A stretch of 26,932 nucleotides of DNA from a virus. The translations under genes and the position numbers were made by a program. This document shows, piece after piece, positions 6,560 through 25,576 of this stretch; the stretch's first letter is position 1; each line of letters begins with the position of its first letter. The notes below the pieces were generated by a model. It saw only the letters and a list, made by a program, of their open reading frames with translations, was not told where the DNA came from and made no database searches. Where the stretch lies: the IMG/VR virus record IMGVR_UViG_3300022538_000627, positions 1 to 26,932 of that record. The stretch is one strand, 5' to 3'.

Positions 6560-7333
6560 TTATTCCGTAACTACTTTAGCATACCAACCATCATACTGTT
6601 TATATCTTTCAATAAATGCTCTTGAACGTCCACCAATTCTATTAAATAATAACTTAGTACTATTCTGATATGACTTTTTGAACGATTCAAATGGTAAATT
6701 ATTCATTATACAAAATAATTTAAACCCATAACTACAATTAAATATTAGTTTATCTTTATTATCGTAGATATTAATGTTTAGTGCATGAGTAATTGATATT
6801 TTTCTCTTTGTTTCATCTGAATGTTTTCTACCTATCCCAGCAATTGACATTTTTCTCTTTGTCTCATCTGATATATTTAATTTAGCAATTGACAATTTCT
6901 TCTTTGTTTCATCTGACATATTTGATTTAGCTGTACTCATTTTCTTCTTTGTTTCATCTGAAACTTTTCTACCTATTCCTGCAACTGATATTTTCCTCTT
7001 TGTCTCATCAGAATGTTTACTACCCAGTGTATTCAATTTACCACTTTTACAACCATTTGATTTATTATACCATAATTCTGAACCTGCAGCATTATTCTCA
7101 GATAGCATTTTGTACTCACCTACATCTGCTTTGATTCTAGTATCAAATAATTCTATTACAGTGTACTTAAAATTAGTTATGTTCTTTTTCTGGTATTTCT
7201 TAGTTAGATATTTTGAAGAACCAAAATACTCAATACCTATATCTTTGATTGGTAAACAATTACAACTATGAACTCCACCATATTTTATTCTATTCTTTTT
7301 ATTTGTAATTATATATGTATAGTGATATTTCAT
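6560..7333 (-). CDS. GIY-YIG homing endonuclease with five NUMOD3 repeats (1)
   Basis: A 257-residue protein. The N-terminal GIY-YIG nuclease domain shows HYTYIITNKKNRIKYGGVHSC (the GIY and YIG strands) and a catalytic Glu region near GEYKMLSENNAAG. About residues 110-190 contain five tandem copies of SDETKRKxSxAxxxR, the NUMOD3 DNA-binding module. The C-terminus (NINIYDNKDKLIFNCSYGFK to GWYAKV) is a NUMOD1-like helix-turn-helix that is almost the same as the end of the endonuclease at 11574-12335. Free-standing enzymes like this (SegA-E type) cut alleles lacking them and spread by repair. It sits between the ligase-like gene and an unknown gene. No clear Shine-Dalgarno is visible. Confidence 0.88.
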   Translation of the reverse strand: MKYHYTYIITNKKNRIKYGGVHSCNCLPIKDIGIEYFGSSKYLTKKYQKKNITNFKYTVIELFDTRIKADVGEYKMLSENNAAGSELWYNKSNGCKSGKLNTLGSKHSDETKRKISVAGIGRKVSDETKKKMSTAKSNMSDETKKKLSIAKLNISDETKRKMSIAGIGRKHSDETKRKISITHALNINIYDNKDKLIFNCSYGFKLFCIMNNLPFESFKKSYQNSTKLLFNRIGGRSRAFIERYKQYDGWYAKVVTE

Positions 7334-7505: not shown

Positions 7506-7506
7506 T

Positions 7507-7560
7507 TCCTTTATTAATCAGTTGTATTATTGCTATTAAATGTAGTTCTATTATAACATA
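7507..7560 (-). promoter_or_regulatory. TATAAT-type promoter with conserved leader
   Basis: Minus-strand sequence with TATGTTATAATAG, then an AT-rich leader containing AGCAATAATACAACTGATTA and AAAGGAA. The same arrangement (TATAAT, leader with a stem-loop, ATTAATAAAAGGAA) recurs near 13741, 14345, 14800 and, inverted, 18780. Confidence 0.4.
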
Positions 7561-11573: not shown

Positions 11574-12335
11574 TTATATAATAACTCTAGCATACCAACC
11601 GCTATACTGACTATATTTATCAATAAATGCTCTTGAACGTCCACCACTTAAATTGAATAATAACTTAGTATTTTTCTGATATGTTTTCTTAAATGACTCA
11701 TATGGTAAATTATTCATTGAACAAAATGGTTTAAAACCTCCATTACAGTTAAATATTACTTCATCCTTTTTGTTGTAAATATTTATCTTTATTGCGTTTG
11801 CGTTATTTTCACCTGTTCGTGCAATAGATAAATTTTTCTTATGTTCTTCTGAAAATATTTTACCTTTCTGAGCAATAGATATTTTTTCTTTATGTTCATC
11901 TGAAAATATTCTACCTTTCTTAGCATCTGACATTATTTTCTTTGTCTTATCTGATGTTTTTCTGCCCCTTTGAAATATAGATATTTTTCTCTTTACTTTA
12001 TCAGTATGTTTTATACCAGTCCTATCAAATCCATCACTTGTCTGTTTTGCTCTATTATAGAATGATTCATTTATCCCAACATTAAATTTATTATGTAACT
12101 TAATTTCTAATTTAAGTGCATCTTCTTTAGTTTTAAATGTTTCAATTATAGTATAAGTATAATGCTCTTTATTCAATATTTGGTCTTTCTTAAATTCTTT
12201 ATCTTTGCTACAGCTAAAATATTTAAATCCAATATCATTGATTGGATCACAAAAACAATGCCTATATCCTATATAGTGTTTATTTAATTGTATATTTGTA
12301 ATTCTATATACGTAATAATATTCTTTTAATTTCAT
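11574..12335 (-). CDS. GIY-YIG homing endonuclease with NUMOD3 repeats (2)
   Basis: A 253-residue protein. The N-terminus has YYYVYRITNIQLNKHYIGYR, the GIY (here VYR) and YIG strands with the Tyr/Arg of the active site, and LEIKLHNKFN carrying the catalytic-region Glu. About residues 105-175 hold four NUMOD3-like modules (TDKVKRKISI, SDKTKKIMSD, SDEHKEKISIAQKGK, SEEHKKNLSIA). The C-terminal NUMOD1-like domain (INIYNKKDEVIFNCNGGFKP ... GGRSRAFIDKYSQYSGWYA) is closely related to that of 6560-7333. It lies between the Ntn-hydrolase-like gene and the pol-beta-like gene, a typical intergenic homing position. Confidence 0.88.
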   Translation of the reverse strand: MKLKEYYYVYRITNIQLNKHYIGYRHCFCDPINDIGFKYFSCSKDKEFKKDQILNKEHYTYTIIETFKTKEDALKLEIKLHNKFNVGINESFYNRAKQTSDGFDRTGIKHTDKVKRKISIFQRGRKTSDKTKKIMSDAKKGRIFSDEHKEKISIAQKGKIFSEEHKKNLSIARTGENNANAIKINIYNKKDEVIFNCNGGFKPFCSMNNLPYESFKKTYQKNTKLLFNLSGGRSRAFIDKYSQYSGWYARVII

Positions 12336-13734: not shown

Positions 13735-13740
13735 TTTTAT

Positions 13741-13835
13741 TCCTTTTATTAATCAATAGCATTATTGCTTTTGATAATTCTATTATATCATAGTTTTATG
13801 TATATAAATTAGTTTATTTTAATATTATTTATATT
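13741..13835 (-). promoter_or_regulatory. TATAAT promoter and stem-loop leader of the 65-aa gene
   Basis: Minus strand: TATATACATAAAACTATGATATAATAG, then an imperfect stem-loop whose plus-strand sequence is ATCAATAGC-ATTATT-GCTTTTGAT, then ATTAATAAAAGGAA before the ATG. In the related leader at 14798-14912 the stem is ATCAATATC/GATATTGAT, so the arms change together (one mismatch here). That compensatory pattern supports a structured RNA leader or an operator. Confidence 0.5.
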
Positions 13836-13886
13836 GTGTATTATTAAATTCCTATTATAACATAAATTTTCTACCTATGATTAAGT
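13822..13886. repeat. 65-bp direct repeat, copy B
   Basis: Second copy of the repeat at 13461-13525. It overlaps the 3' end of the small membrane-protein gene (13881-14021). Confidence 0.85.
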
Positions 13887-14797: not shown

Positions 14798-14912
14798 TCC
14801 TTCCTTTTATTAATCAATATCATTATTGATATTGATAGTTCTATTATAACATAGTTTTATGTATATAAATTAGTTTATTTTAATATAAATAATTATTTAT
14901 ATTATTAAAAAA
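14798..14912. promoter_or_regulatory. Divergent promoter region between the WNE-repeat gene and terL
   Basis: Leftward: TATGTTATAATAG, then the perfect hairpin ATCAATATC-ATTATT-GATATTGAT and AAAAGGAAGGAATG. Rightward: TATAAATT at 14864-14871 (one base off the late octamer TATAAATA), about 41 bp before the terL ATG. A near-copy of the whole region lies at 18772-18888 between an inverted terL fragment and the 65-aa gene. No Shine-Dalgarno is evident before terL. Confidence 0.45.
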
Positions 14913-15440
14913 ATGAGTGAAATTAGAAATATATTCAATGATTCTACGATTAGTGCGTTAAAAGAAAATAAAAATGAAATCACAGAGGAACTTTTAGATA
15001 AATTAAGAGAAGAAAGTAATGATGGCAAAGAGATAGCATTAGAAATTTTAGACTTCGAAAAGGATAATGAACAATATTATCTTGATGCTTATAATAATCG
15101 TATTTCGTTTAATGGTAATAGACGCCTTAAAAAATCATACACTAATCTGCATTTATCACCTATTCATAAAAAAGAAATAGCAAAATGTGCAGCTAGCATC
15201 AGTTACTTTAAAAAAAATTACGTTAAGATTGTTACACCAAATGGTATTTCGTTCCCTAATTTTAGGCAATACCAAGATGATTTTATTGATGTTATTATTC
15301 CTGATGATAATGAATCTATTGTTAGCATTCAACCGAGGCAATGTTGTAGTTCAACTACATCAATAAAAATTTTAAATAATTTAGAACAGAAAGAACAAAC
15401 ATTTGAGGAATTATTTAATGATTGTAAAAATGAAACATAA
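14913..15440 (+). CDS. Terminase large subunit, N-terminal piece + split intein N-fragment 1
   Basis: A 175-residue protein. Residues 1-143 are the N-terminal part of a T4 gp17-like terminase (FPNFRQYQDDFIDVI, then IVSIQPRQ, the start of Walker A). At Cys144 (15342) the sequence becomes an intein N-fragment of only 32 residues (CCSSTTSIKILNN ... FEELFNDCKNET) with block-A character, then TAA. The matching C-fragment begins the next gene (15569), and joining there restores RQ/SGKT. The break so soon after block A is the atypical split known from AceL-TerL. The product must trans-splice to contribute to the DNA-packaging ATPase. The first 39 codons are duplicated, inverted, at 18656-18771. Confidence 0.88.
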   Translation: MSEIRNIFNDSTISALKENKNEITEELLDKLREESNDGKEIALEILDFEKDNEQYYLDAYNNRISFNGNRRLKKSYTNLHLSPIHKKEIAKCAASISYFKKNYVKIVTPNGISFPNFRQYQDDFIDVIIPDDNESIVSIQPRQCCSSTTSIKILNNLEQKEQTFEELFNDCKNET

Positions 15441-15444
15441 ATAA

Positions 15445-15582
15445 TATAGAATTACATTAGCAGAATATTTTTGTGAAAATAACATAAAAAAAACTAAATA
15501 TTTTGTGTTAAATTATAATGGATTTTATACAACAGAATCTTTCAATAAAGATGTATTAATGGAGTTTTATGAAATTATCTAA
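15445..15582 (+). pseudogene. Open remnant in the first terL gap
   Basis: Between the two halves of intein 1 the +1 frame is open for 45 codons (RITLAEYFCENNIKKTKYFV, then LNYNGFYTTESFNKDVLMEF) but has no early start codon. In known fractured genes this place is taken by a homing endonuclease, so it may be what is left of an inserted gene. It carries the GGAG site of the next gene at 15561-15564. Confidence 0.3.
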
Positions 15583-16291
15583 CATAAATAAGAGAAAATT
15601 TATTGAATCATATCATGGTAATGGTAGGAAAATATTAACACCAGATGGATATAAAGAAGTAATTGAAGTTCATAAGACTATACCATATAGAAAATTTATA
15701 ATTACTTTAGAAAATGGGTTAATTTTAAAATGTGCTGGCAATCATGTTATAATTTCCAAAGATTTTACAGAGATATATGCTAAAGATGCATTAAACTATA
15801 TACTTCAAACAGAACGAGGAATTTCAAAAGTGATTTCTGTTTATGATACTGGAATTGAAGAAAACATGTATGATATTTCTATTAATTCAAAAGATGAATT
15901 ATATTATACAAATGGAGTATTAAGTCATAATAGTGGAAAAACTGTAACGCTTGGTATATATCTAGCACATACAGCGATATTTAAGCGAGATATGAATATT
16001 GGCATAGCTGCCAATAAAAGTAAACAAGCAGCTGAATTTCTTGATAAGACAAAAAAAATTTTGATTGAATTGCCAGTTTGGATGCAGGCAGGAATTACCA
16101 CATGGAATAAAACATATATTGAAAATGAAAATGGCATAAGAATTATTACTGATAGTACATCAACTGATAGTTTCAGGGGCTTTTCTTGTCTAGAAAAAAA
16201 TACTCCAATTGAAGTTTTTGACAAGATAGAAAAAAAATATAGGACATTAACGATTGGTGAAATGTATAATAATTGTGATATAATTGTATAA
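15569..16291 (+). CDS. Split intein C-fragment 1 + terminase middle piece + split intein N-fragment 2
   Basis: A 240-residue protein with three parts. Residues 1-121: intein C-fragment with ILTPDGYKEVIEVHK, a block-B-like ENGLILKCAGNHVII, block F YDTGIEENMYDISI and block G YYTNGVLSHN, ending His-Asn before Ser+1. Residues 122-206 (85 aa): terminase middle part SGKTVTLGIYLAH ... GIAANKSKQAAEFLDKTK ... ITDSTSTDSFRGFS, colinear with T4 gp17 after Walker A. Residues 207-240: a second, different intein N-fragment (CLEKNTPIEVFDKIEKKYRT...) of 34 residues. A GGAG site lies 4 bp before the ATG. The protein has to splice at both ends, with two different partners, to be used. Confidence 0.88.
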   Translation: MKLSNINKRKFIESYHGNGRKILTPDGYKEVIEVHKTIPYRKFIITLENGLILKCAGNHVIISKDFTEIYAKDALNYILQTERGISKVISVYDTGIEENMYDISINSKDELYYTNGVLSHNSGKTVTLGIYLAHTAIFKRDMNIGIAANKSKQAAEFLDKTKKILIELPVWMQAGITTWNKTYIENENGIRIITDSTSTDSFRGFSCLEKNTPIEVFDKIEKKYRTLTIGEMYNNCDIIV

Positions 16292-16294
16292 ATA
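16287..16294 (+). promoter_or_regulatory. T4-type late promoter (TATAAATA) inside the second terL gap
   Basis: TATAAATA on the plus strand overlaps the stop codon of the terminase middle piece and lies 25 bp before the ATG at 16320, with TTAGGAG between. It could also drive the downstream terL-C gene. Confidence 0.55.
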
Positions 16295-16319
16295 ATATTT
16301 TATAACTTAGGAGTGCAAT

Positions 16320-16682
16320 ATGTATTTTAGAAAACTTTTAGAAAATAATACTAATGAAAAAGCAATTTCCGAATCTGATACTGTTTTAGGGTTGTTAAAA
16401 AAATTAGTAAAAGATGGAAATGATGCAAATGACTTTGATATAATAAAAGGAAATCTAGTCCACACAAACAAATTCTACTATAATGCTAAAACAGCATTAA
16501 AAGAACTTAAACAATTATGGTCTAAAGGTGGTTATAATTACAAATTTGCTAGAGTCAAATTTCCAGATATATCAAATATCAAAATCATAGATACATCCAC
16601 ATATATTAAGCATCATGGTGATTCTGGTAAAGGGAGTTTTTTCAACGAAGGGAACGTTAGTGTTGTTTTAAAAATAACATAG
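16320..16682 (+). CDS. Tag-bearing hypothetical protein in the second terL gap
   Basis: A 120-residue protein starting MYFRKLLENNTNEKAISESD, a variant of the M-x-F-R-E-[FY]-L tag. The body (VLGLLKKLVKDGNDANDFDI ... FARVKFPDISNIKI ... GDSGKGSFFNEGNVSVVLKI) shows no nuclease motif and no family I recognise. It separates the two halves of intein 2, the place where homing endonucleases sit in described fractured genes. It has its own late promoter (16287-16294) and ribosome-binding site (TTAGGAGTGCAAT). Inference: a head-packaged cargo gene inserted in the gap. Confidence 0.6.
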   Translation: MYFRKLLENNTNEKAISESDTVLGLLKKLVKDGNDANDFDIIKGNLVHTNKFYYNAKTALKELKQLWSKGGYNYKFARVKFPDISNIKIIDTSTYIKHHGDSGKGSFFNEGNVSVVLKIT

Positions 16683-16711
16683 CTAATATTGTGATAAACT
16701 AGAGACGTTTG

Positions 16712-18166
16712 ATGAAAATAAATAAAAGATATTTAATTAGGACAGATTCTGGGTACCAAGATTTTGATGCTATTCAAAAGACAGAAGAAAAAGGTTTAAG
16801 TATCACAACAAATAAGAATGTTATAAATTGCACTAAAACACATAGAATGATGATTGATGGTAAATTTAAATGTGCAATGGATTTAAAAATTGGTGATTTA
16901 ATAGGCGACCAATGTATTTTAAATATAACACCAAGTAATTTAAATGAATATTTTGATCCTATAAATGTACAGGGGGACAATTCTTATTTTTCATTGGGTA
17001 TAAATCATCATAATTGTTCAATAGTAATAGTAGATGAATGCGCGTTCGTCAAACAAAATTTATGGGAGAACTTCTCAGATTCAATTTTCCCTGCTCAATC
17101 AGGTTTTGCTTGGAAAAAGAATATTTTAATTAGTACTACAAATGGTCTAAATCACTTCTATGATATTGTTCAAGGAGCAAAAGAAGGAATAAATGGTTAC
17201 GAAATTTTTGAAGTAGATTGGAAAGATGTGCCACGATTTAAACCAAATGGTTCAATAATACCACCAGAAGAATTTCAAAAGAATATAATTGCAAAACGTG
17301 GTATCTTACATTTTAATCAAAATTACGCTAATGAGTTTCTTGGATCATCACATACGTTGATTACTTCTGAAAAATTACAATCCATGCGAAAAGGTGAAAT
17401 ATGTGAGATTAGAGATGGTAAATTAAATATATATGAATACCCAATAGAAAATCATAAATATATTATGACTGTTGATCCATCTAAAGATGGTATAGATGCA
17501 TTTGCTGTTCAGATTACAGATATTACAGATTATAAATTTAAACAGGTGGCATCTGCCCAGTTACATATAGATTATTTATTAATGCCAGAATTTTTAAATG
17601 AATGGGGTGAGTTTTATAATAAAGCATATTTAATTATTGAAAATAATGAAGGTGCAGGACAATCTATTGCAGATCAAATGTATCAAAATTTTGAGTATGA
17701 AAATCTACATTTTGACAAAATATTTCTTGGTAATATTAGCAGATCAAGAAAGAAAAAATACCCTGGTTTTAGAACAACTGTTAAAACAAGAAAACAAATT
17801 ATACAAACATTGAAATTATTTATTGAAAATGATAAATTAGACATTAATGATAATGCAACTATTAATGAATTTTATCAATTTATTTTAATTAAAAACAAAT
17901 TTCAAGCAGATCAGGGGGCACATGATGATATGATAATGTCATTAGCATTAACATTCGTTCCGTTTTGTAATACTAAGAATTTTGAAGATATGAGAAAATT
18001 AATTAAAAATTTATACAATGATGACATCCCAGATTCTGAAAAAGTTAATTTTAGTGAATTATTAACTATTGGTAGTTTTCAAGATGGAACAGATGAAAAT
18101 GATTTTGATATATCCAATCAAGAAAGTTGGAATAGGCACATAATTGAAGATGGTGGATTTATTTAA
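16712..18166 (+). CDS. Split intein C-fragment 2 + terminase C-terminal piece (Walker B and nuclease)
   Basis: Starts at the ATG at 16712 (a TTG precedes it in frame). Residues 1-101 are an intein C-fragment: RTDSGYQDFDAIQKTE, NVINCTKTHRMMIDGKF (block B), LKIGDLIGDQCILNI, YFDPINVQGDNSYF and SLGINHHN before Cys+1; it closely follows the AceL-TerL C-fragment pattern. The next 383 residues are gp17-like: CSIVIVDECAF (Walker B), ISTTNGLNHFYDIV (coupling motif), and the RNase H-fold nuclease with Asp in IMTVDPSKDG, Glu in LIIENNEGAG and Asp pair in GAHDDMIMSLA, matching T4 D401, E458 and D542. It supplies both the ATPase catalytic acids and the headful nuclease once spliced. Confidence 0.9.
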   Translation: MKINKRYLIRTDSGYQDFDAIQKTEEKGLSITTNKNVINCTKTHRMMIDGKFKCAMDLKIGDLIGDQCILNITPSNLNEYFDPINVQGDNSYFSLGINHHNCSIVIVDECAFVKQNLWENFSDSIFPAQSGFAWKKNILISTTNGLNHFYDIVQGAKEGINGYEIFEVDWKDVPRFKPNGSIIPPEEFQKNIIAKRGILHFNQNYANEFLGSSHTLITSEKLQSMRKGEICEIRDGKLNIYEYPIENHKYIMTVDPSKDGIDAFAVQITDITDYKFKQVASAQLHIDYLLMPEFLNEWGEFYNKAYLIIENNEGAGQSIADQMYQNFEYENLHFDKIFLGNISRSRKKKYPGFRTTVKTRKQIIQTLKLFIENDKLDINDNATINEFYQFILIKNKFQADQGAHDDMIMSLALTFVPFCNTKNFEDMRKLIKNLYNDDIPDSEKVNFSELLTIGSFQDGTDENDFDISNQESWNRHIIEDGGFI

Positions 18167-18655: not shown

Positions 18656-18771
18656 TTGCCATCATTACTTTCTTCTCTTAATTTATCTAAAAGTTCCTCT
18701 GTGATTTCATTTTTATTTTCTTTTAACGCACTAATCGTAGAATCATTGAATATATTTCTAATTTCACTCAT
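18656..18771 (-). pseudogene. Inverted duplicate of the terL 5' end (38 codons)
   Basis: Identical base for base to 14913-15028, on the opposite strand. It breaks off after GATGGCAA, where the frame runs into foreign sequence and stops at 18550. It cannot make a terminase fragment, since it lacks the extein beyond residue 38 and the intein. Confidence 0.9.
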
Positions 18772-18888
18772 TTTTTTAATAATAAAAAAAATTATTTATA
18801 TTAAAATAAACTAATTTATATACATAAAACTATGATATAATAGAACTATCAAAAGCAATAATGCTATTGATTAATAAAAGGAATAAAA
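18772..18888. promoter_or_regulatory. Copy of the divergent promoter/leader region
   Basis: Near-identical to 14798-14912 (inverted). Rightward it reads TATGATATAATAG, a stem-loop leader (ATCAAAAGC-AATAAT-GCTATTGAT) and ATTAATAAAAGGAATAAAA before the ATG at 18889, so it should express the 65-aa paralogue. Confidence 0.5.
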
Positions 18889-23509: not shown

Positions 23510-23713
23510 TTATAATATATTTTTTTTAATACCATCAACAGTATCTTGCATAAATTCTTCTACTATTATTATTGCATCTTTCTCAGTAATATTATTATGA
23601 TCCCAATCAAAGGAATATTCTATCCCATTAGACTTCATATTGATATCATATATAATAATATGTTCATTTACGACAAATCTACCTTTACCCACAAGGTTAA
23701 CATTTTTTATCAT
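23510..23713 (-). CDS. Small hypothetical protein coupled to nrdA (67 aa)
   Basis: From the ATG at 23713 (MIKNVNLVGKGRFVVNEHII), which overlaps the nrdA stop in an ATGA arrangement; the upstream Met at 23719 is less likely. The protein is beta-rich with an acidic C-terminal helix (EKDAIIIVEEFMQDTVDGIK). No family recognised. Coupling to NrdA suggests a related role, but that is a guess. Confidence 0.55.
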   Translation of the reverse strand: MIKNVNLVGKGRFVVNEHIIIYDINMKSNGIEYSFDWDHNNITEKDAIIIVEEFMQDTVDGIKKNIL

Positions 23714-24771
23714 GTGCAACTTTCACATACATGATTATCAGTTTCCTTTTGTTGGCGAAGATAATAAAAAGTCTTTAACCCGATAGAGAAACCATACAAA
23801 TGCAAATCTGACATTTGTTTTAATGAATCTGGTTTAGTAATATAAACATTGACAGATTGTGATTGGTCTATCCATTTTTGTCTTACTGCGGCATTTCTAA
23901 GAAGTGCATATTGATCACATTCAAATGATCTCTTATAATATTGATTATTTTTTCTGAAGTTAGGGACTATGGTTGGAACTGTAATGGTGCCCTCTTCCTT
24001 ATAGAAGAAATTATGTATTGGTTCAGTACTTTCAGTACTATTAATTGCCCGCCCAGAAGTTGCTGTTGGAGCAATAGCAAGAAGTTGAGCATTTCTAATA
24101 CCAAACGTTTTAACCCGTTTAGCCAATTTATCCCACTTATCCCAATTAGGTTCATATGTAGTTAATGCTTTTGCATTTTCATTTGCTTTATGAATTGGTA
24201 GAATTCCCTTTGCCCATTGTGTTTCATAAAATTTTGAGAATTTGCCTTTCTCAATTGCTAGATCAACAGATGCACTAATGATTAAATACGAAAGTTCATC
24301 AAATAATTTATCTGTTTCCTCAAGGGCTTCATATGTATCTATAACGATTCCTTTTAAAGCTAAATAATTTGCATAATTTAATACCCCAATACCTAAGTAC
24401 CTATACATTAGGTTAGAATTTTTCCCTTCCTTTACTGGGTAATTAGCAATATCAATAGTATTATCTAGTGATCTTATTAGTATGTTAATTAATTTTACCT
24501 TTTCATCATTATTCATATAAAACCAACGTTCTAGGTTTACCGAACTTAAATTACATAAAGAAATTTCACCTGCTTTATAATTTTTAATAATACGCTTATC
24601 ACCAGATTCTGTTTGAACTAACTCTTCATTAATATTCTTACTTGCACGACTTGGTAGGCAAATCTCTGTACAATTATGCACTAATATATCATTTGCATAA
24701 AAATTATTATTGCCATCTACGGTAATATCATAAACTGGGATTTTTTCTTTTAAATTTTCAATTTTTAACAT
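23710..24771 (-). CDS. Split intein C-fragment + ribonucleotide reductase alpha subunit, C-terminal half
   Basis: Residues 1-33 are an intein C-fragment (MLKIENLKEKIPVYDITVDG, block F; FYANDILVHN, block G) like the short C-parts of gp41-1 and NrdA split inteins. The next 320 residues are class Ia/Ib NrdA from the catalytic cysteine onward: CTEICLP (E. coli Cys439/Glu441 region), GEISLCNLSS (Cys462), the TP-x-ATSGRA-like APTATSGRA phosphate loop, KTFYYLRQQ (Tyr730/731) and a C-terminal VCESCT redox pair. The 320 residues compare with 323 from Cys439 to the end of E. coli NrdA. The N-half with its intein fragment is not in the window, so it lies more than 2 kb upstream. Its start overlaps the GIY-YIG gene by 14 bp. 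Confidence 0.9.
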   Translation of the reverse strand: MLKIENLKEKIPVYDITVDGNNNFYANDILVHNCTEICLPSRASKNINEELVQTESGDKRIIKNYKAGEISLCNLSSVNLERWFYMNNDEKVKLINILIRSLDNTIDIANYPVKEGKNSNLMYRYLGIGVLNYANYLALKGIVIDTYEALEETDKLFDELSYLIISASVDLAIEKGKFSKFYETQWAKGILPIHKANENAKALTTYEPNWDKWDKLAKRVKTFGIRNAQLLAIAPTATSGRAINSTESTEPIHNFFYKEEGTITVPTIVPNFRKNNQYYKRSFECDQYALLRNAAVRQKWIDQSQSVNVYITKPDSLKQMSDLHLYGFSIGLKTFYYLRQQKETDNHVCESCT

Positions 24772-25576
24772 TTTTAAATTTTTTCTTCCTTATTAGAAAC
24801 AGACAACTTTTTTTGTTATGTTCCCCTGAACGTTTTCTACCTTTTAAAGTTTCAGATATTTTTTTCCTATTCTCTTCACTTCTATAGTATGGATTGTATT
24901 GCAAACCAGTTTTTTCTTCAATGATCAAATATAGATTTTTATCTGTAAACCTAAATTTTGTAAAATATTTAGGAATGTTCCTATTGTATTTCTTTTTGAC
25001 ATAGATTCTTAAAATGTTAATTGAAGGAATTCTATTTAAAGTATTAGTCAATTCCAAATAATAATCTATGATTTCCTCATCTGATATACCTGAATAGTTT
25101 GGGTTTTTTGAACCACTGGTAACTTTTGAAATAGCTTTTATAGTTTCTTTTGAAGATTTTGAACCTTTTGAATGATGTGCCCATTCTCCAGATAATACTT
25201 TTAGATGATTTATATCTACACAACCAATCATTTTACCGGTTTTCTGGCATCTTACTGGCATCTTACCTAAAACATTAAAATTTCCACTTTTGAATCCATT
25301 ACATTTATTATACCACAACTCTGAACTAGCAGCATTGTTCTCAATAAGCATTTTACGTTCACCTATTTCTGCATCTAGTCTAGATTTAAATGTCTCTATT
25401 ACAATATAATCAAATTCTGATATGTTCGATTTCTGCTCTTTCTTAGTTAAATGTTTAGATGATCCAAAATAATTAATACCTATATCTTTAACTGGATTAC
25501 CAACACAAGTATGAACTCCACCATATTTCATTTTGTTCTTTTTATTTTCTATGATATAGACATAATGATATTTCAT
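24758..25576 (-). CDS. GIY-YIG homing endonuclease adjoining split nrdA (3)
   Basis: A 272-residue protein with HYVYIIENKKNKMKYGGVHT (GIY and YIG strands) and GERKMLIENNAASSELWYNK with the catalytic-region Glu. The N-terminal about 100 residues are very close to those of 6560-7333, but the rest differs. It has CQKTGKMIGCVDINHLKVLS, a middle domain (DYYLELTNTLNRIPSINILR) of the NUMOD/HTH type and one NUMOD3 (SEENRKKISETLKGRKRSGEH), then a basic tail. It directly precedes the nrdA intein C-fragment, the classic fractured-gene position, so it probably cuts the intact nrdA allele. Confidence 0.88.
   Translation of the reverse strand: MKYHYVYIIENKKNKMKYGGVHTCVGNPVKDIGINYFGSSKHLTKKEQKSNISEFDYIVIETFKSRLDAEIGERKMLIENNAASSELWYNKCNGFKSGNFNVLGKMPVRCQKTGKMIGCVDINHLKVLSGEWAHHSKGSKSSKETIKAISKVTSGSKNPNYSGISDEEIIDYYLELTNTLNRIPSINILRIYVKKKYNRNIPKYFTKFRFTDKNLYLIIEEKTGLQYNPYYRSEENRKKISETLKGRKRSGEHNKKSCLFLIRKKKFKNVKN

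Follow-up and report, generated by a model that had tools for sequence, protein, structure and literature searches.

A terminase gene in three pieces with two different split inteins in a T4-like phage

In 2009 Dassa et al. described fractured genes that have split inteins together with free-standing homing endonucleases (as related in passages of PMC10448857 and PMC7090010), and split inteins are also on record for the large subunit of phage terminase, TerL: AceL-TerL, GOS-TerL and the engineered Cat (PMC11766414) have a TerL host gene, a short N-terminal intein fragment (IntN, 25–37 amino acids, aa) and a C-terminal fragment (IntC) of ~104–115 aa. Three chains and two orthogonal split inteins have been brought together by engineering, in three-segment tandem trans-splicing (PMC12707363). 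Neither a fractured gene nor a split intein in TerL is new as a kind, and the subject here is a natural terL gene in which the two are compounded. It lies in IMG/VR virus record IMGVR_UViG_3300022538_000627, the whole of which, a genome fragment of 26,932 bases, is referred to below as the window.

How does this locus compare? As in the fractured genes of 2009, so far as the cited passages portray them, an essential phage gene is broken inside an intein and in several relatives an endonuclease gene lies between the halves; the differences from what those passages relate are that there are two (and up to three) split inteins per gene, with a middle chain predicted to be spliced at both ends, and that the endonuclease is decayed or absent in the window. 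The one split per gene described for the AceL-type inteins is quite a contrast to the two here, one of which, intein 1, sits in Walker A with Ser+1. Compared with the engineered three-chain system, whose orthogonality would have its counterpart here, the arrangement in the window is natural. The Campylobacter phages CP21, vB_CcoM-IBB_35, CPt10, CP220 and F379 have inteins at the same TerL sites. In the literature searched, which did not take in the 2009 paper itself, no account was found of a natural gene that relies on at least two split inteins and has a doubly spliced middle chain.

Anatomy of the gene and its two inteins

In the window, terL is spread over three open reading frames (ORFs), here P1, P2 and P3 (Table 1), and for the last of them an ATG start at 16712 is preferred over TTG at 16709. 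The breaks fall at RQ/SGKT in Walker A (site a) and at RGFS/CSIVIVDE, just before Walker B (site b). An earlier sequence-only reading had claimed three ORFs with intein borders, 611 residues on joining, and restoration of both of these motifs, and all of that is present. When recomputed, the exteins sum to 143+85+383 = 611 aa, and, once joined, they give a single alignment with T4 gp17 (3ezk_A; E=1.7e-64, over 54–540) that crosses both junctions without a gap and has RQSGKT (Walker A), IVDE (Walker B) and the nuclease motifs VDPSKD/IENNE/HDD in register. The joined exteins have what is expected of a T4 gp17-type TerL, both Walker motifs and the acidic residues of the nuclease on a single colinear protein, and the PHROGs label for the pieces is terminase large subunit.

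Each IntN was concatenated with its IntC and aligned to homologues, and the resulting profile was searched against solved structures. Intein 1 matched gp41-1 (1.2e-7), VidaL and CatC, and for intein 2 the best match was CatC (2.4e-15), which bears out the further claim of intein N- and C-fragments at both breaks. Neither set of homologues shows any variation at Cys1, the block-B His or the terminal HN, and with Ser after the SHN end of IntC1 and Cys after the HHN end of IntC2 the residues of a class 1 split intein are complete. The IntN lengths of 32 and 34 aa fit the atypical, AceL/Cat-like, range. The Hint fold is indicated by the profile matches for both inteins and by fold matches for the IntC parts alone; in AlphaFold models built with alignments of natural homologues, P2 matches VidaL, gp41-1 and Cat, and P3 matches gp17 and Cat, with the predicted local distance difference test (pLDDT) score higher within the IntC parts. 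Because the profiles match solved inteins, the models match intein structures and both junctions recur in other contigs, the identification of the two elements as inteins is, judged on these comparisons, far beyond chance. The two profiles are related to each other (hhalign probability 98%), and cross-splicing between them seems less likely because their identity is 21% and the +1 residue is Ser at site a and Cys at site b.

The mechanism proposed is that P1, P2 and P3 are made as separate chains, P1 and P2 pairing through IntN1 and IntC1, and P2 and P3 through IntN2 and IntC2, and that two class 1 trans-splicing reactions would then remove both inteins to leave one 611-residue packaging ATPase-nuclease, the middle chain P2 being spliced at both ends. 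Walker A would be completed only by the first splice and the Walker B strand follows the second, and therefore the unspliced chains should lack ATPase activity. As to how the chains are made, the core of a T4-type late promoter is TATAAATA, which is enriched in the window (25 sites against 13.6 expected, a number reached in 0 of 100 shuffles), as is HATAAATAAT (14 sites against 5.5 expected), and the promoter-like sites before or at the ends of the pieces are consistent with separate late transcription of P1, P2 and P3.

A doubly fractured terL of a T4-like phage, its three pieces joined by two trans-splicing reactions, is very probable, and anatomy, homology, recurrence, conservation and insertion polymorphism make it the best-supported reading. 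The main rival to it is that of genes in pieces, namely that the three chains assemble non-covalently and the intein fragments merely hold them, with little or no ligation. In L024, L029, L077, L078, L083 and L084 (numbers refer to the loci of the next section) TerL has a break without an intein signature within an insertion loop, at residue ~284, perhaps a non-covalent two-chain form, and the TerL family therefore seems tolerant of such forms; a phage ribonucleotide reductase in pieces is also described, as cited in a passage of PMC10448857. However, pairing alone would not require conserved nucleophiles, block-B His and terminal HN, and breaks a and b fall within the ATPase core, and so this alternative is considered improbable.

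Are the pieces simply those of a decaying pseudogene, with an intact copy outside the contig? The contig is a fragment, and downstream of P3 the 5′ region of terL is repeated in inverted orientation over 228 nt. Against this, the three exteins are open and conserved, intact relatives being up to 72% identical to them, and the ratio of nonsynonymous to synonymous substitution rates (dN/dS) is low for IntC1: 0.09–0.32 between the window and five viral contigs, and 0.41 against the distant CP21. For IntC2 it is 0.22–0.38 in three of four loci compared with the window, with dS mostly near saturation, and 0.15 for the close pair CP21 and IBB_35, where dS is unsaturated. By these ratios purifying selection acts on the C-fragments. 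No other TerL match was found in the 235-kb L078 record, in complete CP21, where matches are limited to pieces at 90.5–94.7 kb, or in four complete Fletchervirus genomes, which have TerL as two parts. A pseudogene is accordingly very improbable.

Some points weigh against the trans-splicing of three chains. IntC2 of the window against that of IBB_35 gives a dN/dS of 0.85; the short IntN fragments do not allow selection to be tested firmly, and one IntN1 pair has a ratio near 1; the models are of moderate confidence (mean pLDDT 63.6 for P2 and 70.4 for P3) and lowest around the junctions; and, though the window holds no intact terL and just the one in three pieces, it is a fragment, so that an intact terL may lie elsewhere in the same genome.

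With regard to the repeat itself, its copies are 97% identical and comprise the terL upstream region and first 39 codons; an upstream part of ~110 nt occurs again (89%) and, in part, once more (Table 1).

Table 1. Features of the window, and the states of terL in relatives
Feature	Position	Strand	Evidence or remark
P1 ORF	14913..15440	+	
P2 ORF	15569..16291	+	
P3 ORF	16712..18166	+	
P1 N-extein, TerL residues 1–143, end ...SIQPRQ	14913..15341	+	phrog_5989 terminase large subunit 3.6e-25
IntN1, 32 aa, CCSSTTSIKI...FEELFNDCKNET then stop	15342..15440	+	Cys1, Thr6, LF tail kept in homologues
IntC1, 121 aa, MKLSNINKRKFIESY...YYTNGVLSHN	15569..15931	+	TIGR01443 intein C-term; homologue alignment; structure matches
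Middle extein (P2), TerL residues 144–228, 85 aa, SGKT...FRGFS	15932..16186	+	PF03237 3.7e-7; gp17 alignment
IntN2, 34 aa, CLEKNTPIEVFDKIEKKYRTLTIGEMYNNCDIIV then stop	16187..16291	+	homologue alignment
IntC2, 101 aa, MKINKRYLIRTDSGY...SLGINHHN	16712..17014	+	CatC 2.4e-15; homologue alignment; model
C-extein (P3), TerL residues 229–611: CSIVIVDE (Walker B), remaining ATPase, nuclease domain	17015..18166	+	PHROG, gp17 alignment, model
Late-promoter-like TATAAATA, upstream of P1	14884..14891	+	
Late-promoter-like CATAAATA, overlaps P1 stop, upstream of P2	15436..15443	+	
Late-promoter-like TATAAATA, overlaps P2 stop	16287..16294	+	
Gap 1 with probable remnant of homing endonuclease C-terminus (NGFYTTESFNKDVL)	15445..15582	+	weak match, E 2e-4
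120-aa ORF in site-b gap, where relatives carry an endonuclease gene	16320..16682	+	GGAG motif before start
228-nt inverted repeat	14801–15028 and 18656–18883		97% identical
Upstream part of repeat, ~110 nt	13740–13848; partly 7506–7560		89%
Homing endonucleases, phrog_314	6560–7333; 11574–12335	-	no adjoining intein detected
NrdA C-terminal part and, just upstream, a homing endonuclease (phrog_314)	23710–24771; 24758–25576	-	NrdA part opens with intein C-fragment
Peptide GFSCSIVIVDECAFVK			predicted tryptic peptide of joined TerL, would span site b
Peptide DNESIVSIQPRQSGKTVTLGIYLAHTAIFKR			predicted Asp-N peptide of joined TerL, would span site a
Window			split a, b
L009			split a, b′; cis intein at d
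L012			split a, c
L026			split a, b; ORF in each gap
L066			split a, b; ORF in each gap
L027			split a, d; b cis
L078			split a′, b; four chains
L083			split a′, b, d; plus intein-free break ~284; five chains
F341 TerL halves with split-intein ends	L098 1489–2817; L114 1550–2266		

Recurrence in viral contigs and Campylobacter phages

Scanning viral contigs with the TerL C-part gave 70 loci, in which breaks were read against intact references (for L012, L077, L078 and L083, where the automatic table had spurious junction overlaps, they were taken from the ORFs). The intein sites are a (RQ/SGKT), a′ (RQSGK/T), b (RGFS/C), b′ (two residues further), c (VDE/C) and d (before CEFLGS), and the same sites are empty, occupied by a cis intein, or split among relatives: at many loci terL is uninterrupted, and in others there are cis inteins. 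The AceL-TerL site is presumably a third TerL site, d, and that site is occupied in other relatives. At least two split inteins in terL are present in the window and in seven further contigs. The sequence-only reading knew of no described three-piece terminase; the three pieces stand, and what does not is the notion of a single case. Relatives of P2 were not found in bacterial genome contigs. On a quick tree of 69 TerLs, in which several forks are open and L014 is scored ‘empty’ although its contig begins inside the intein, the presence of two or more split inteins in 8 rows takes no fewer than 7 changes to explain, a count which does not separate gain from loss and is taken only as a sign of scatter.

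The multi-intein, multi-ORF terL genes of CP21 and vB_CcoM-IBB_35 were already in public databases. Site a is split in F379 and cis in CP21, IBB_35 and CPt10, it lacks the intein in CC_R7, and in CP21 site b is split with an endonuclease gene; among the cultured isolates examined (CP21, vB_CcoM-IBB_35, CPt10, CP220 and F379) none has both a and b split. On the two sides of the site-a break F379 and CPt10 share 96.6% and 95.9% identity; at the break itself there are ~1,160 nt with an endonuclease-like ORF in F379, whereas in CPt10 there are 47 nt and the intein is continuous. As far as the alignment of the two tells, they differ by the endonuclease-like insertion, with which the cis intein becomes a split intein.

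A third alternative is that the gaps are removed as an RNA intron or bridged by frameshifting, with the inteins then splicing in cis. A similar gap was read as an intron by the authors on IBB_35, for whom terL contains ‘an intein and an intron’ (PMC3322345), and the first two ORFs of L012 overlap in different frames. However, gaps go down to a few or even negative numbers of nucleotides in L009 and L012, and in the complete phage F341 TerL is found only as two halves, each in a gene with a split-intein end, on opposite strands about 24 kb apart in a circular record of 131,680 bases, the N-part ending FIDE/CVAGDTKITV...YNRIG-stop, which is an IntN, and the C-part opening with an IntC that ends VSHN/CAFIDK. 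Removal or bridging of the gaps is hardly credible. An Rfam search of the window gave no intron.

The F341 N-part is present at 90% identity or above in 39 phage records, and in the NCTC12673 record neither TerL half is annotated. The IBB_35 terL (L018 4529–9775), when re-read, looks like a cis intein at site a together with one or more split inteins, the published ‘intron’ looking like split inteins, probably with a middle chain whose extein is the 8-aa CNIIVVDE; there is a frameshift in its last fragment, which may stem from an error in sequencing.

Endonucleases in the gaps and the order of events

The site-b gap ORFs of L026 and L066 match T5orf172/MUG113 endonuclease domains above cut-off. 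Their site-a gap ORFs have no Pfam match and are endonuclease-like only by resemblance to the F379 gap ORF, which itself has a sub-threshold T5orf172 match. Endonuclease-type gap ORFs are seen in relatives such as L026, L066, L012 and F379. The window has no endonuclease gene between the halves: in gap 1 there is the probable remnant, which weakly matches the C-termini of the ORFs that L066 and L078 have in the corresponding gap (E 2e-4, in a set of 14 proteins) and the F379 gap ORF (E 0.006), and gap 2 has the 120-aa ORF. That ORF gave no Pfam, PHROG or phage match, and with weak matches at best (E 0.004, in the same 14-protein set) it was not accepted as an endonuclease remnant. The gap ORF of L011 is related to that of L026 but has an internal deletion (37% identity in the N-terminal part, 68% in the last 31 residues), and gap 1 has disappeared from L009 and L012.

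On the proposed account homing endonuclease genes would have entered the two intein sites, pushing the halves of each intein into different ORFs; decay has probably reduced the one at site a to its remnant, and the 120-aa ORF now occupies the gap at site b, so that the split would persist without its mobile gene. An order of insertion, decay and loss is plausible.

Elsewhere in the window there are two more homing endonucleases of phrog_314, and a further one lies just upstream of the C-terminal part of NrdA, which opens with an intein C-fragment of 33 aa, ...FYANDILVHN/CTEICLPS, that matches TIGR01443 above cut-off (1.4e-8). The NrdA N-part was not found in the contig. The fragment is probably from a third split intein of the same phage.

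Proposed serial splicing of an essential enzyme

TerL genes of this type would be a source of natural, probably orthogonal split-intein pairs with a short IntN, useful in protein engineering, and terL, which commonly serves as a phage marker, can be overlooked or counted wrongly if it is in pieces. If the reading is right, the genes of the window type are the natural counterpart of engineered tandem protein trans-splicing: an essential enzyme appears, from its gene and those of its relatives, to be rebuilt in nature by serial protein splicing. It is likely that T4-like phages repeatedly reach packaging motors made only by serial trans-splicing of at least three chains, L083 with its three split inteins and five chains being the furthest advanced among these loci. 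An endonuclease would split an intein and be lost while the split remains, and further sites of the same gene would be struck; fragmentation would therefore ratchet up with the enzyme staying essential. These genes offer a polymorphic series, from empty and cis to split with endonuclease, split with a remnant and split without, and would make directly testable the extent to which an essential enzyme can be broken up and yet rebuilt.
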